This document shows, in pieces, positions 2,615 through 6,932 of a stretch of 33,969 bases of DNA (position 1 is the first letter of the stretch; every line of letters starts with the position of its first letter). A program made the position numbers and the translations under genes. The DNA lies in the IMG/VR virus record IMGVR_UViG_3300012001_000026, positions 1 to 33,969 of that record. One strand, written 5' to 3'. Under the pieces are notes generated by a model. That model saw only the letters and a list, made by a program, of their open reading frames with translations. It did not search any database and was not told the DNA's origin. This DNA comes from a virus.

Positions 2615-2808
2615 GATGGAAACCCAGGAACAGCGGCATCTGCTTCGCCTGGCTCCCGACCTGGACCCAGGACGAGGGCACCGTGTGGCTGGAGTGGCTG
2701 CACTGGGAGCGCAACGATGGCGGTGCCAACCAGCCGTTCGCCTACTGGGCCTGGGTCTCGGAGGAGGACTACGACGCGGGCAAAAGGGCAGGTCGCCGTG
2801 GCCAGTAA
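2611..2808 (+). CDS. Small Trp-rich hypothetical protein (65 aa)
   Basis: Begins at ATG 2611 overlapping the previous TGA. The sequence is rich in Trp and acidic residues (CFAWLPTWTQDEGTVWLEW, WAWVSEEDYDAG), suggesting a compact beta-rich fold. No family recognised. It overlaps the following GTG-started gene by 11 bases, continuing the tightly coupled operon. Confidence 0.65.
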   Translation: MRWKPRNSGICFAWLPTWTQDEGTVWLEWLHWERNDGGANQPFAYWAWVSEEDYDAGKRAGRRGQ

Positions 2809-3175
2809 AGCCAAGGAGCTGAAGGCCTACGTCGAGCAGGTGCTCGTGGACGAGGGCGTGGCGAGGCCGTACGAGTTCTCCCTGGCCGCGAACTCACACC
2901 AGCAGGTCGTCTTCTATGTCAAGGGCATCCGCGTCAAGTACCAGTTCCCGTTCTCCCCGTCGGACTACAGGTCCATGCTCAACTCGCGCTCGTCCATCCG
3001 GAAGGCCATCCGCACCGCCTCGGGGCACGCTCTTTCAGGAGCACCTGCGCGGCGATCCCTTCTGGATGATGGTTGCGTGCTGCCTCGTAAACCTCACCAC
3101 CTGGGAGCAGGCCGAGCCGGCGTTTCTAAACTTGCGCCGTCGGTTCGTCCACGCTGGCGGTCTTGCGGGGGCTAG
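2798..3175 (+). CDS. Small phage protein with PSDYRSxxNxRSxIRKAIR motif; 3' end uncertain
   Basis: GTG start at 2798 with an AGGGCAGG site. The first ~75 residues (KAKELKAYVEQVLVDEGV; HQQVVFYVKGIRVKYQFP; PSDYRSMLNSRSSIRKAIR) look like a complete small alpha/beta domain: a strand pair and a basic helix, reminiscent of dsRBD/HicA-like folds. From about 3022 the frame runs on to 3175 over the glycosylase in another frame, and this tail (Arg/Pro-rich) looks non-coding. Either the genes overlap or one base too many in GGGG (3021-3024) breaks a fusion to the glycosylase. Confidence 0.55.
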   Translation: MASKAKELKAYVEQVLVDEGVARPYEFSLAANSHQQVVFYVKGIRVKYQFPFSPSDYRSMLNSRSSIRKAIRTASGHALSGAPARRSLLDDGCVLPRKPHHLGAGRAGVSKLAPSVRPRWRSCGG

Positions 3176-3479
3176 ACCCGCTAGGCTCGTCCACGCCCTC
3201 CGGCCGCTCGGCCTATCCAACATCAGGTCAAAACGTTTGGTCGCGATGGCCAAGGCTTGGTGCACGCAAGTCCCCTCCTCTGCCTCGGATGTTCTAAGTC
3301 TACCTGGCTGTGGTTCCTATGCCGCGGACAGTTGGGCGATCTTTATCGAAGGCAGACTCCTTGACCGTGACACTGTCAGTGACCACAAACTCGGATGGTT
3401 CCTCGACGCTGTCGCGAGTGGAAAGAAGGAGACTCCAATGCCTTGCCTGCCACAAGGTTCATCGAGTACAGAGAACTGA
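2916..3479 (+). CDS. MBD4-like HhH-GPD DNA glycosylase (T/U:G mismatch type)
   Basis: The recognisable fold begins at 3027 (TLFQEHLRGDPFWMMVACCL). The first ATG in this frame is 2916, but 2916-3026 reads as shadow, so the true start is unclear. Domain order follows the MBD4 catalytic domain: N-terminal helices with NLTTW, LRPLGLSNIRSKRL, the helix-hairpin-helix LPGCGSYAADSWAIF (from 3300) and the catalytic SDHKLGWFLD, whose Asp (3381) is the GPD aspartate. There are no Cys residues for an EndoIII-type FeS cluster. Enzymes of this family remove T, U or hydroxymethyl-U opposite G. Adjacent nucleotide-modification genes suggest repair of deaminated modified cytosine (inference). The 3' end overlaps the HNH gene. 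Confidence 0.75.
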   Translation: MSRASASSTSSRSPRRTTGPCSTRARPSGRPSAPPRGTLFQEHLRGDPFWMMVACCLVNLTTWEQAEPAFLNLRRRFVHAGGLAGARPARLVHALRPLGLSNIRSKRLVAMAKAWCTQVPSSASDVLSLPGCGSYAADSWAIFIEGRLLDRDTVSDHKLGWFLDAVASGKKETPMPCLPQGSSSTEN

Positions 3480-3861
3480 GGCTGGACGCAAGTGGCGACT
3501 TGAGAACCTCGAACGGGTTCGAGCCTATCGTCGTCGCCATCAGAAGGTATTCCTCTCAGACCTTTCCAATCGACTTGCTCATAACCTGCGAGTTCGTCTG
3601 GGCAAAGTCATACGAGGGCGAAAGACGAGGTCGACGTTAGACCTCTTAGGGTGTTCACTTGAACGTCTTAAAGAGCATCTTGCAGGACAGTTTCAATCGG
3701 GAATGTCCTGGGAGAATTATGGGCAGTGGGAAGTTGACCACATCAAGTCCCTAGCATCCTTTGATCTGACCGATCCCATACAGCTCGCGGAGGCGTGCAA
3801 CTTTTCCAACTTGCAACCTCTCTGGGCCTTGGACAACAACCGGAAGGGAAACATATGTTAG
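3418..3861 (+). CDS. HNH homing-type endonuclease
   Basis: 147 residues if started at GTG 3418. It has an N-terminal C-x-x-C (CLACHK), an Arg/Lys-rich helical region, LDLLGCSLERLKEHLAGQF, then GMSWENYGQWEVDHIKSL with the catalytic D-H (107-108) and NLQPLWALDNNRKGN with the metal-binding Asn residues. This is the common free-standing phage HNH layout. The best ribosome site (AAGGAGA) precedes ATG 3438, which is in the glycosylase frame, not this one, so the start is uncertain. The gene is clearly less GC-rich than its neighbours, as expected for an invading element. Its stop overlaps the next start. Confidence 0.8.
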   Translation: MERRRLQCLACHKVHRVQRTEAGRKWRLENLERVRAYRRRHQKVFLSDLSNRLAHNLRVRLGKVIRGRKTRSTLDLLGCSLERLKEHLAGQFQSGMSWENYGQWEVDHIKSLASFDLTDPIQLAEACNFSNLQPLWALDNNRKGNIC

Positions 3862-4889
3862 AGATGCAGCTAAGCAACGTCCGCGACTTCCACATGCAGG
3901 TGACGGGGCAGCCGATGGCGGACGTCCCGACGATGCTCGTCGCGGACCGACGGGACTACGCGATCAAGTTCCTGGACGAGGAGCTGACCGAGTTCAAGGA
4001 CGCCTGCACGATCGCCGACCAGGCTGACGCACTGATCGACATGATCTACGTCGCCTACGGGCGGCTCCTCGAGATGGGCATCCAGCCCGGCCCGTCCTTC
4101 CAGCTCGTGCACGAGGCCAACCTCAAGAAGGTCCGCGGCCCGACGAAGCGTGGCGGCGTGTACGACGCCGCCAAGCCCGATGGCTGGCAGCCGCCGGACT
4201 GGGAGGACCACCTCAGTCTCGACAAGGGCCAGTACATTGGCCTCACACGTGAGGTCGATCAGTTTGGTGGACCGCGACCGCGGACAAACCCCTGGGACAA
4301 TAGCTGTCAGCCGTTCTTCAAGAGCACGGTCGAGCGCGAGGATTACGAGCGCGAGCACCGCAAGCCTAAGATCCTCCTGCTCGGCTACGGACGGCACGGC
4401 AAGGACACCGTCGCCGAGATCCTCGAGAGCAAGTATGGACTCACCTTCACCTCGAGCAGCATGGTCTGCGCGGAGAAGGTAATGATGCCGGTCTTCAATA
4501 GGCACGACGGTGTCCGCCAGACCGTCATATATGCCGACGTCAAGGAGTGCTTCAACGACCGACACAACCACCGCGTCACGTGGTTCAAGGCCATCGAGGA
4601 GTTCAACACCCCCGATAAGTCGGCGCTCGGTCGGATCATCTTTGAGGCCAACGACATATACGTCGGCCTCCGCAGCGCCCGCGAGTTCCACGCCGTGAGG
4701 AACGCCGGGCTGTACGACGTCTGCATCTGGGTCGACCGCTCGCAGCACGTGCCGCCCGAGGACAGGTCGTCCTGCACCGTCGAGCCGTGGATGGCCGACT
4801 ACGTGATCGACAACAACGGCACGCTCGACGAGCTGGCCTTCAACGTGGACGCCCTCATGTGGGGCCTGGAGAAAAAGCGCAATGCCTAA
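3855..4889 (+). CDS. MazG-like NTP pyrophosphatase fused to deoxynucleoside monophosphate kinase
   Basis: 344 residues, starting at ATG 3855 after GGAAGGGA and overlapping the HNH stop. Residues ~10-110 are an all-alpha NTP pyrophosphohydrolase: FLDEELTEFKDA (E42, E43, E46) and DALIDMIYVAYG (D58, D62) give the E-x-x-E / D-x-x-D metal site. Residues ~170-340 are a P-loop kinase with Walker A GYGRHGKDT (177-185), GLTFTSSS and the C-terminal DYVIDNNGTLDEL seen in phage dNMP kinases. The T4 analogues are gp56 (dCTPase/dUTPase) and gp1. The fusion would remove an unwanted dNTP and phosphorylate the modified dNMP made by the next gene. Substrate specificity is inferred. Confidence 0.8.
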   Translation: MLEMQLSNVRDFHMQVTGQPMADVPTMLVADRRDYAIKFLDEELTEFKDACTIADQADALIDMIYVAYGRLLEMGIQPGPSFQLVHEANLKKVRGPTKRGGVYDAAKPDGWQPPDWEDHLSLDKGQYIGLTREVDQFGGPRPRTNPWDNSCQPFFKSTVEREDYEREHRKPKILLLGYGRHGKDTVAEILESKYGLTFTSSSMVCAEKVMMPVFNRHDGVRQTVIYADVKECFNDRHNHRVTWFKAIEEFNTPDKSALGRIIFEANDIYVGLRSAREFHAVRNAGLYDVCIWVDRSQHVPPEDRSSCTVEPWMADYVIDNNGTLDELAFNVDALMWGLEKKRNA

Positions 4890-5745
4890 CGATCGGACCC
4901 TCTCGCACGTAGCCGGGACCTTCCCCTACATCTACGACGAGCTGCTCGAGGAGCTCGTCAACTCGCCGTTCACGGAGGTCAACCAGCGGACGGGCGCCGA
5001 GATCAAGATGCTCCTGGGCGGCTGCAGCTTCAAGCTGGACCTGACGGACCAGCGTGTGCCGGTCACCGGGTCCCGCAAGCTGTTCCCGCACGTGGCCGCG
5101 GCCGAGGTCGCCTGGTTCCTCCAGGGCAACCAGGACGTGACCTGGCTCAACTATCACGCCAAGATATGGGACAAGTTCAAGGAGCCGGGGACGGAGATCG
5201 TCAAGGCCGCCTACGGGTACCGCTGGAGGTTCCACTTCGACCGCGACCAGATCAAGCTGGCGATCGCGGCGCTCCAGATGAACCCGACCGACCGCCGCGT
5301 GTGGGTGCAGGCCTGGGACCCGAGCGAGGACGGCCTGGGCGCCCCGAACCAGAGGAACGTGCCGTGCCCCATCGGCTTCACCCTCTCGATCGTCGGCGGC
5401 CTGCTGCACAGCTCGCTGTTCATCCGCTCGTCGGACGTCTTCGTGGGCCTGCCGTACGACGTGATGGGCCACGCCATCCTGATGGCCAACGTCGCGGCGT
5501 CGATCGGCCTCATGGGCCTCGGCACCATGCAGGTGACGCTGGCCCACCCGCACCTCTATGCACAGCACTACGACATGGCCGCGCAGTGCCTCGTGAACGT
5601 CCACCACCCGAAGGGCCCCGAGCTCTATGCGTGGCGGGTCGACGACGTACTGGCGGACCCCGACGGCTTCGTCTTCACCTACCGCAAGTCGGCGCAGGCG
5701 GTTGAGTGGTCCGATTATGCGCCCAAGCCGGAGTTGGTACTTTGA
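4882..5745 (+). CDS. Thymidylate synthase-fold enzyme, predicted dCMP hydroxymethylase
   Basis: 287 residues, the length of the ThyA family. Conserved sites (E. coli TS numbers in brackets): R36 (R21), E75 in AEVAWFLQG (E58), Y111 (Y94), catalytic C162 in NVPCPIGF (C146), R182 and D185 in IRSSDVF (R166, D169), H224 and Y226 in HPHLYAQHY (H207, Y209). The base-reading Asn177 is replaced by Asp193 in GLPYDVMGHA; Asp at this position is the hallmark of dCMP hydroxymethylases such as T4 gp42. Hence it probably acts on dCMP with methylene-THF. Ordinary dUMP methylation cannot be excluded. It overlaps the kinase gene by 8 bases. Confidence 0.8.
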   Translation: MPNDRTLSHVAGTFPYIYDELLEELVNSPFTEVNQRTGAEIKMLLGGCSFKLDLTDQRVPVTGSRKLFPHVAAAEVAWFLQGNQDVTWLNYHAKIWDKFKEPGTEIVKAAYGYRWRFHFDRDQIKLAIAALQMNPTDRRVWVQAWDPSEDGLGAPNQRNVPCPIGFTLSIVGGLLHSSLFIRSSDVFVGLPYDVMGHAILMANVAASIGLMGLGTMQVTLAHPHLYAQHYDMAAQCLVNVHHPKGPELYAWRVDDVLADPDGFVFTYRKSAQAVEWSDYAPKPELVL

Positions 5746-6194
5746 AGATTGTGAGCAACACGAAGAAGGACGAGAACAGCGCCTCCGGGGAGGCGATCGA
5801 CCCCGGCACACCGCTGTCGCCGGCGGAGCAGCAGCGTATGCAGCTCGAGCAGTCACACCCATTCGTGAAGGGCATGGCCAACGCCGGCGCCATCCTGGGC
5901 CGGGACATAGGCGTCCTGGCGCTGCGCGCCGTCGAGGGTGTCCGCGACGGAGGCCTCAACGCCGTGCTGTACTGGACCGGCGACCGAGTCCCCGAGGCCA
6001 TCAGGGCGCAGATGACGGACCAGATGCGCGACAACCTCCACGGCGCGATGATCGTGCCGCAGGGCGCGCGGATGCCGCTGTTCACGTTCCACGAGACCCA
6101 GGTCCGCACCGCCTCCCGCGTCCTCGCCGATGGGTCGCAGCTCATCATCTTCGAGGAGGTCAAGGACGCGCAGCAGGACGCGGCCTCTGCCTAG
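5742..6194 (+). CDS. Hypothetical protein (~150 aa) in the nucleotide operon
   Basis: Probable start TTG 5742 (TTGA overlap with the previous stop, GGAG upstream) or GTG 5751. The product has a disordered charged N-terminus (NTKKDENSASGEAIDPG), a Gly/Ala region (GMANAGAILGRDIGVLALRAVEG) and a C-terminal part (MIVPQGARMPLFTF... LADGSQLIIFEEVKD) that looks like an alpha/beta domain. No recognised family and no clear membrane span. Its place between the TS-fold gene and DUF4326/DHFR hints at a nucleotide-related role, which is only contextual. Confidence 0.65.
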   Translation: MKIVSNTKKDENSASGEAIDPGTPLSPAEQQRMQLEQSHPFVKGMANAGAILGRDIGVLALRAVEGVRDGGLNAVLYWTGDRVPEAIRAQMTDQMRDNLHGAMIVPQGARMPLFTFHETQVRTASRVLADGSQLIIFEEVKDAQQDAASA

Positions 6195-6435
6195 GGTCCT
6201 CAACAAGCACCGCGACACCATCCCCCCGGGCGCAGTCTACTGCGGCCGGGGTTCTCCGTACGGCAACCCGTTCCCGATCGCCGGGACACTGACGCGCAAG
6301 AAGGCGATAGAGAAGTTCGTGCGCGAGGTCCTCCCCGGCCTCGACGTGTCGGCCCTCCGCGGGAAGGACCTCGTCTGCTTCTGCAAGCCGCGGGCGTGCC
6401 ACTGCGATCACATACTGGAAAAGGCGAACAGATGA
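6187..6435 (+). CDS. DUF4326 family protein
   Basis: The family signature is clear: PRVLNKHRDTIPPGAVYCG, RGSPYGNPFPI, LRGKDLVCFCKPRACHCD. Family members normally begin MPRVxNKH, which here corresponds to CTG 6187 (CTG CCT AGG), overlapping the previous stop and 7-9 bases after AGGA. The nearest in-frame ATG (6130) would add 19 unlikely residues. The C-x-C-x-x-x-x-C-H-C-D cluster suggests metal binding. Function is unknown; the family is common in phages. The stop overlaps the DHFR start (ATGA). Confidence 0.75.
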   Translation: MPRVLNKHRDTIPPGAVYCGRGSPYGNPFPIAGTLTRKKAIEKFVREVLPGLDVSALRGKDLVCFCKPRACHCDHILEKANR

Positions 6436-6932
6436 AGCTCATCATGGCGGTTTCGAAGGAAGGCTACGTGACCAGGTGCCTCGACGACGACATGAGTTGG
6501 ACCGGGCCGAGCGACAAGACGGCGTTCCGCCTGCTGACCTGCGTCGGCGGCCACATCGCGTGCGGGTCCCGGACCTGGGACAGGATGCCGCACCAGCTCC
6601 CCGGCCGCCACCTGGTCAAGCTGAGCACGTCCGCGCCGATCGGCCACGAGACCCCGACGCTCGACTGGTTCGAGAAGCACCACCCCGACGGCTGGCTGAT
6701 CGGGGGCCAGACGATCGCGCTCGAGGCGCTCAAGAAGGACCTGGTGGACCAGGCATTCATCGTGCACTCGTCGCGGCTCTGCTTCCCGACGGCGAGCGGC
6801 GACAGGTATACACTGGGTAGCCAGTACCACCTGCACGAGGACTACCAGCGGCACAACCCGCGGTGGCGGAAGTCGACGACCCTGGCCCTCGGCGACGTCG
6901 AGGTCGCCGTCTGGAACAGGCAGCGGCTGTGA
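6432..6932 (+). CDS. Dihydrofolate reductase-like protein
   Basis: 166 residues with the DHFR order of motifs: MKLIMAVSKEGYV at the N-terminus, MSWTGPSDKTAFRLLT with the catalytic acid (D28, equivalent to E. coli D27), CGSRTWDRMP and LPGR, then GWLIGGQTIALEAL, the GG NADPH loop. It reduces dihydrofolate to tetrahydrofolate, the carrier used by the TS-fold enzyme encoded ~0.7 kb upstream. A TS makes DHF, whereas a hydroxymethylase does not, so the pair does not decide the TS question; T4 carries both types plus a DHFR. It is coupled by ATGA at its start and GTGA at its end. Confidence 0.8.
   Translation: MKLIMAVSKEGYVTRCLDDDMSWTGPSDKTAFRLLTCVGGHIACGSRTWDRMPHQLPGRHLVKLSTSAPIGHETPTLDWFEKHHPDGWLIGGQTIALEALKKDLVDQAFIVHSSRLCFPTASGDRYTLGSQYHLHEDYQRHNPRWRKSTTLALGDVEVAVWNRQRL

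Follow-up and report, generated by a model that had tools for sequence, protein, structure and literature searches.

A phage gene cassette with a thymidylate-synthase-fold enzyme, a MazG-kinase fusion and a DHFR, predicted to supply 5-methylcytosine nucleotides

The window analysed here, a whole stretch of 33,969 bases and about 65% G+C from a tailed phage (IMG/VR record IMGVR_UViG_3300012001_000026), holds a gene cassette built around an enzyme of the thymidylate synthase (TS) fold. Early genes lie on the plus strand, namely the end of a helicase, the cassette and a nuclease/helicase-family gene, and the structural and lysis genes (tape measure, tail proteins, endolysin and DNA transfer protein) lie on the minus strand. 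The genes in question are the following:

2916–3479, plus strand: MBD4-like HhH-GPD mismatch DNA glycosylase; homologous part 3018–3476, start uncertain, with a possible ATG at 2916 that would overlap the preceding gene.
3855–4889, plus strand: fusion of a MazG-like (d)NTP pyrophosphatase (residues ~1–130) with a dNMP-kinase-like P-loop domain (~158–343), 344 amino acids.
4882–5745, plus strand: TS-fold enzyme, predicted dCMP methyltransferase (Asn159, Cys162, Pro163, Asp193; Pfam 2.5e-38).
5706–6194, plus strand: small protein without a family match, in the place of the relatives' dCMP deaminase; the start may be 5742.
6130–6435, plus strand: DUF4326 protein (PF14216, 2.6e-16; phrog_464, 1.4e-29), with a start between 6130 and 6205.
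6432–6932, plus strand: dihydrofolate reductase (DHFR), predicted dihydrofolate recycler (PF00186, 2.8e-6; phrog_13578, 1e-38).

Aligned with E. coli ThyA, the TS-fold enzyme has Glu75, Tyr111, Cys162, Arg182, His224 and Tyr226 of the active site, and its Asp193 stands at N177. A preliminary description of the window, which read the genes as a pathway to 5-hydroxymethylcytosine (5hmC), had rightly recognised the catalytic Cys, Arg, His and Tyr and this Asp but missed Pro163, which takes the place of ThyA H147, the His adjoining the catalytic Cys. The residue three before the catalytic Cys (Cys-3) is Asn159, and the residue two before the catalytic Tyr111 (Tyr-2) is Ala109, not Ser/Thr (Ser94 in T4). 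In a ThyA-type TS, N177D/N229D alone is enough to give a dCMP methylase rather than a hydroxymethylase (Liu & Santi 1992 and Hardy & Nalivaika 1992, as cited in PMC8670742), and Asp177 tracks with contigs of modified cytosine (PMC8670742). From the structure of the T4 enzyme, the hydroxymethylase signature is Asp/Glu at Cys-3 plus Ser/Thr at Tyr-2, both required for activating the substrate water and keeping it in place, and T4 dCMP hydroxymethylase D145N is inactive (PMC6400193). A dCMP hydroxymethylase in a phage carrying 5hmC, possibly further decorated, would agree with Asp193, as found in T4 gp42, but is unlikely given Asn159 and Ala109 in place of the required residues (PMC6400193). Alignment with ThyA, T4 gp42, SPO1 gp29 and the M6 enzyme places this Asn against Asp at Cys-3 in all three hydroxymethylases. 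The C-terminal region is full-length, whereas that of T4 is shortened, and no glycosyl- or carbamoyltransferase, nor any other transferase acting on 5hmC, was seen among the proteins scanned in the window and part of the sister genome. What stands of the earlier pathway is its general form: a route to a modified cytosine nucleotide, with pyrophosphatase and kinase fused and an Asp reading cytosine, is well supported.

Relatives of the TS-fold enzyme were obtained from an alignment scan, a single-sequence scan having returned no match, and the active-site columns were scored in all relatives found. The combination Asn-Cys-Pro-Asp occurs in 49 of the 51 clade contigs, the exceptions being one Ser at Cys-3 and one broken frame with Ala; the sequences of L071 and L067/L068 are partial and agree where readable. 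Position 177 is Asp, never Asn, in every clade sequence scored there. All 80 T4-type loci from a separate scan have Asp-Cys-Thr-Asp. Divergent clade-like sequences (L070–L072) join Asn-Cys-Pro-Asp to a ThyA-like C-terminal end (PVAI/FVAI), which is absent from T4 dCMP hydroxymethylase. In the tree, a quick search with some long branches and modest within-clade support (several forks below 90), the window enzyme and that of contig L022 (68–69% identical) fall within a clade of RDJL phages and Bradleyvirinae, the latter comprising DLP4 (Bosavirus), PaMx28 and Donnerlittchen; the T4 enzymes form a separate long branch and those of M6 and SPO1 another, both apart from this clade. Together with the neighbourhood, the signature offers a criterion, open to testing, that would separate dCMP methylases from hydroxymethylases in about 50 phage contigs. 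A second TS lineage (L108 4543–6957, L117 4464–6422), canonical-looking with Leu at Cys-3, His147 and a PVAI-like tail, has Asp at N177 and divergently adjoins a MazG-kinase fusion of its own; it is possibly an independent dCMP methylase.

The TS homologues of this family have been named dUMP hydroxymethylases (PMC11946847), which would lead to 5-hydroxymethyluracil (5hmU) or hypermodified thymine, and M6, a phage of the same family (Mesyanzhinovviridae), hypermodifies thymine. We regard this as very improbable, since the M6 and SPO1 enzymes, besides their separate branch, pair Asn177 with Asp at Cys-3 and the clade has the opposite pair; none of the scanned window proteins was recognised as a 5-hydroxymethyldeoxyuridine DNA kinase. 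The signature argues against the published annotation (PMC11946847) for this clade and, with the neighbourhood, would indicate which phages have genomes of 5-methylcytosine (5mC).

The closest studied relatives group with Xp12, the classic example of a phage whose cytosine is fully methylated, which likewise speaks against 5-hydroxymethylation: Xp12 DNA is 100% 5mC by liquid chromatography-mass spectrometry (LC-MS; PMC7653180), and Xp12 is a Bosavirus, the genus of DLP4 and AXL1 (PMC11946847). From Xp12 itself a dCMP methylase has been characterised (Feng 1978, as cited in PMC5175136), and the paper on its sequencing deferred the pathway to later work (PMC7653180); a published Xp12 PCR primer had no match among viral contigs. 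The DNAs of AXL1, DLP4 and PaMx phages resist many restriction enzymes by a mechanism called unknown (PMC9206674). Bosavirus resembles the window in the DLP4 TS (same clade, 47.5% identical, Asn/Pro/Asp signature), in the order MazG-TS-DHFR and in the MBD4-like gene, also present in AXL1; it differs in the C-terminal part of its MazG, where the window has the kinase fusion, and in its dCMP deaminase, in whose place the window has the DUF4326 gene and an unassigned gene. RDJL1/2 (Xiamenvirus), RcRudolph and RcSimone-Hastad share the fusion (phrog_38514, 40–47% identical), a TS of the same clade and DHFR, but keep the dCMP deaminase between TS and DHFR, and those stretches of them that were read showed no MBD4-like gene. 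Their annotations read Cof hydrolase or ThyX-like TS, and literature searches for modified DNA in RDJL or RcSimone phages returned nothing relevant. The T4 system shares the TS fold, the Asp reading cytosine (T4 Asp179) and the logic of a dCTPase (gp56) plus a dNMP kinase (gp1); it differs in Asp145 at Cys-3 and Ser94 of gp42, in separate genes, in the lack of an adjacent DHFR, in its product, 5hmC, and in its remote place on the tree.

TS-type methylation yields dihydrofolate and hydroxymethylation tetrahydrofolate (PMC6400193); dihydrofolate recycling is thus needed after the former and not the latter, and an adjacent DHFR points to a methylating reaction. That a DHFR follows was correctly seen in the preliminary description, although it starts at 6432 and not 6396, and two genes (5706–6194 and the DUF4326 gene, 6130–6435) separate it from the TS gene. 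Its Pfam match (27.6 bits) lies above the 25-bit cut-off, and it is homologous (39.8% identity) to the DHFR of AXL1, which was shown to confer trimethoprim resistance (PMC9206674). Of 51 clade contigs, 37 have a clade-type DHFR in the locus, against 0 of 80 hydroxymethylase loci (Fisher 2e-21, uncorrected for shared descent), a comparison whose profile was trained on the clade itself and whose counts treat related contigs as independent, many of the hydroxymethylase loci being short. Repeating it with the Pfam DHFR model on 50 hydroxymethylase records gave 8 matches, each in a complete T4-like genome and at least ~44 kb from gp42 (distances computed from scan coordinates, the genome taken as circularly permuted); the same model is weak on clade DHFRs, matching 14 of 50 records. 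The 80 T4-type loci rule out a DHFR association general to phages with modified cytosine. They lend the hydroxymethylase alternative something in return, as MazG occurs around 57 and dCMP deaminase around 53 of them, and two non-T4 hydroxymethylase loci (L139, L146) have MazG and kinase genes. A DHFR beside a TS is also the usual arrangement for dTMP, and the AXL1 authors read the genes in this way (PMC9206674): an ordinary dUMP thymidylate synthase with DHFR recycling and a MazG dUTPase would then supply plain dTMP, leaving the DNA unmodified. The resemblance of the MazG domain to the dUTP-processing DR2231 would suit such a supply, but the invariant Asp at position 177, the restriction resistance of the relatives' DNAs and the 5mC of Xp12 make it improbable, as does the lack in the window lineage of a dCMP deaminase to feed dUMP.

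A dCMP deaminase adjoins the TS gene in 47 of 51 clade loci. No PF00383 deaminase was found in the window or in sister contig G001 (64,465 bases), and for these two the idea of a deaminase lying elsewhere was rejected. Its place is held by the 5706–6194 gene and the DUF4326 gene in the window (5706–6435) and likewise in L022 (6879–7477), where DUF4326 occupies the same place; searches with the protein of 5706–6194 gave no family match and a weak homologue only in L022, also a sister contig. The thymidylate route of Xp12 may be deamination of 5-methyl-dCMP; if so, the relatives' deaminase would be part of that route. A title cited in PMC11946847 (Kuo 1982) speaks of a new route to thymidylate in Xp12.

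The fusion had been described beforehand as a MazG-like pyrophosphatase and a P-loop dNMP kinase in one chain overlapping the TS gene, and Pfam, phrog, AlphaFold and Foldseek results bear this out; the overlap with 4882–5745 is 8 bases. Residues 19–89 match PRA-PH/MazG (E 1.5e-11), and the kinase half matches the dNMP kinases of phrog_139 (2e-14) and, weakly and under the Pfam cut-off, DNMK (15.6 bits). A single family, phrog_38514, covers both domains (1.5e-94, residues 11–338). The AlphaFold model has two confidently predicted domains joined by a disordered linker (133–153); Foldseek pairs the first domain with MazG-like DR2231, while dephospho-CoA kinase, T4 dNMP kinase (1dek) and cytidylate kinases are matches of the second. 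Full-length relatives occur on 23 other contigs and in phages RDJL1/2/3/6, RcRudolph, RcSimone-Hastad and Tedan, and the fusion is already catalogued (phrog_38514; RDJL1 gp18; RcRudolph gp46) and hence not new. A nucleotide-kinase role also agrees with N4-like roseophages, where this kinase domain has ThyX as its fusion partner; one such protein, in Roseobacter phage RD-1410W1-01 (L017 4995–6521; PF02511, 1.3e-48), is annotated only as thymidylate synthase. The MazG proteins of Bosavirus (L015 2198–2971) and Donnerlittchen (L007 5180–5983) end in a different C-terminal part, phrog_18404, which gave no match to a kinase.

Residues, clade and DHFR together make it probable that the TS-fold enzyme is a dCMP methyltransferase, and that the cassette serves 5mC as in Xp12 rather than 5hmC. 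Starting from the observed folds, residues, clade and conserved neighbourhood, we infer the substrates, product, degree of replacement and repair role from sequence and context. The cassette would yield 5-methyl-dCTP, letting the phage replicate its DNA with 5mC in place of cytosine. By hydrolysing dCTP, and probably dUTP, to the monophosphate, the MazG domain would both deplete ordinary dCTP and provide dCMP. With Asp193 reading cytosine, the TS-fold enzyme would take the one-carbon unit from methylene-tetrahydrofolate, attach it to C5 of dCMP and reduce it to methyl, giving 5-methyl-dCMP and dihydrofolate, from which the adjoining DHFR would regenerate tetrahydrofolate. The fused kinase domain may then phosphorylate 5-methyl-dCMP towards 5-methyl-dCTP for the phage polymerase, and the MBD4-like glycosylase would excise thymine from the T:G pairs that deamination of 5mC leaves. 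Several points weigh against the methyltransferase assignment. The Cys-3 residue is Asn, as opposed to Leu in ordinary TS; the C-terminal tail reads PKPELVL where PVAI is canonical; an adjacent DHFR is not seen in 14 of 51 clade loci; and the signature of the Xp12 enzyme is inferred from its congeners only. DR2231, the nearest structure to the MazG domain, was solved with dUTP-analogue/dUMP ligands, and dCTP specificity of this domain is a guess. MBD4 also acts on 5hmU:G, so that the glycosylase cannot by itself tell 5mC from 5hmC. Phage genomes of 5mC bear on escape from restriction, on modification-dependent restriction and on sequencing artefacts.

The MBD4-like gene upstream of the fusion was absent from the preliminary description. 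In a phmmer search against the PDB with 3018–3479, the nearest sequences were all MBD4 (2e-7), with EndoIII at 0.011; the family profile gave MBD4 7.6e-22, EndoIII 8.8e-11 and MIG 2.8e-9. The AlphaFold model (pLDDT 91.8) had MBD4 as its top 16 Foldseek matches, all full length with TM 0.75–0.79. All of 16 relatives keep Tyr101 and Asp122 (numbering from 3018), and these align with MBD4 Tyr540/Asp560, which we take to be the catalytic residues. The glycosylase domain of human and mouse MBD4 thus matches over its full length in sequence and fold; the phage protein, of predicted activity, differs in lacking the methyl-CpG-binding domain and in standing beside nucleotide-modification enzymes. The gene lies within 6 kb in 15 of 51 clade loci and 0 of 80 hydroxymethylase loci. 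Of these 15 loci, 14 have it upstream of the TS gene and on its strand, and one, L026, has it downstream. It was found in 7 of 50,697 phage records, AXL1 included, all of them Bradleyvirinae or the close relative YB23. A common bacterial repair gene was rejected as its identity, no relative being found in 84,980 species, though the scan was a narrow one, made with two conserved peptides of the protein; literature searches on phage MBD4 returned nothing relevant. A fully 5mC genome should gain T:G mismatches by deamination, which an MBD4-like glycosylase fits, and its position suggests a role in in-cassette repair of deaminated 5mC. We give even chances to a broader proposal, in which wholesale-5mC phages carry an in-cassette MBD4-type thymine-DNA glycosylase against 5mC deamination, a counterpart of the animal pairing of 5mC with MBD4 built independently of DNA methyltransferases, and in which the Asn-x-Pro-Cys-Pro / Asp signature marks dCMP methylases, correcting annotations as thymidylate synthase or dUMP hydroxymethylase. 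An MBD4-like glycosylase in phages would offer a natural setting in which to test how deamination is dealt with by a fully methylated genome.

An Endonuclease VII/HNH-like open reading frame (window 3310–3861, plus strand; phrog_1035, 5e-8) lies between the MBD4-like gene and MazG and overlaps the former. The G+C content of 3018–3861 is 56% compared with 65% in the window, so part of this segment may be a recent arrival. A small conserved gene (2801–3175, plus strand; phrog_2053-like) has a frame that continues over the start of the MBD4-like gene, indicating either overlapping genes or an old frameshift.

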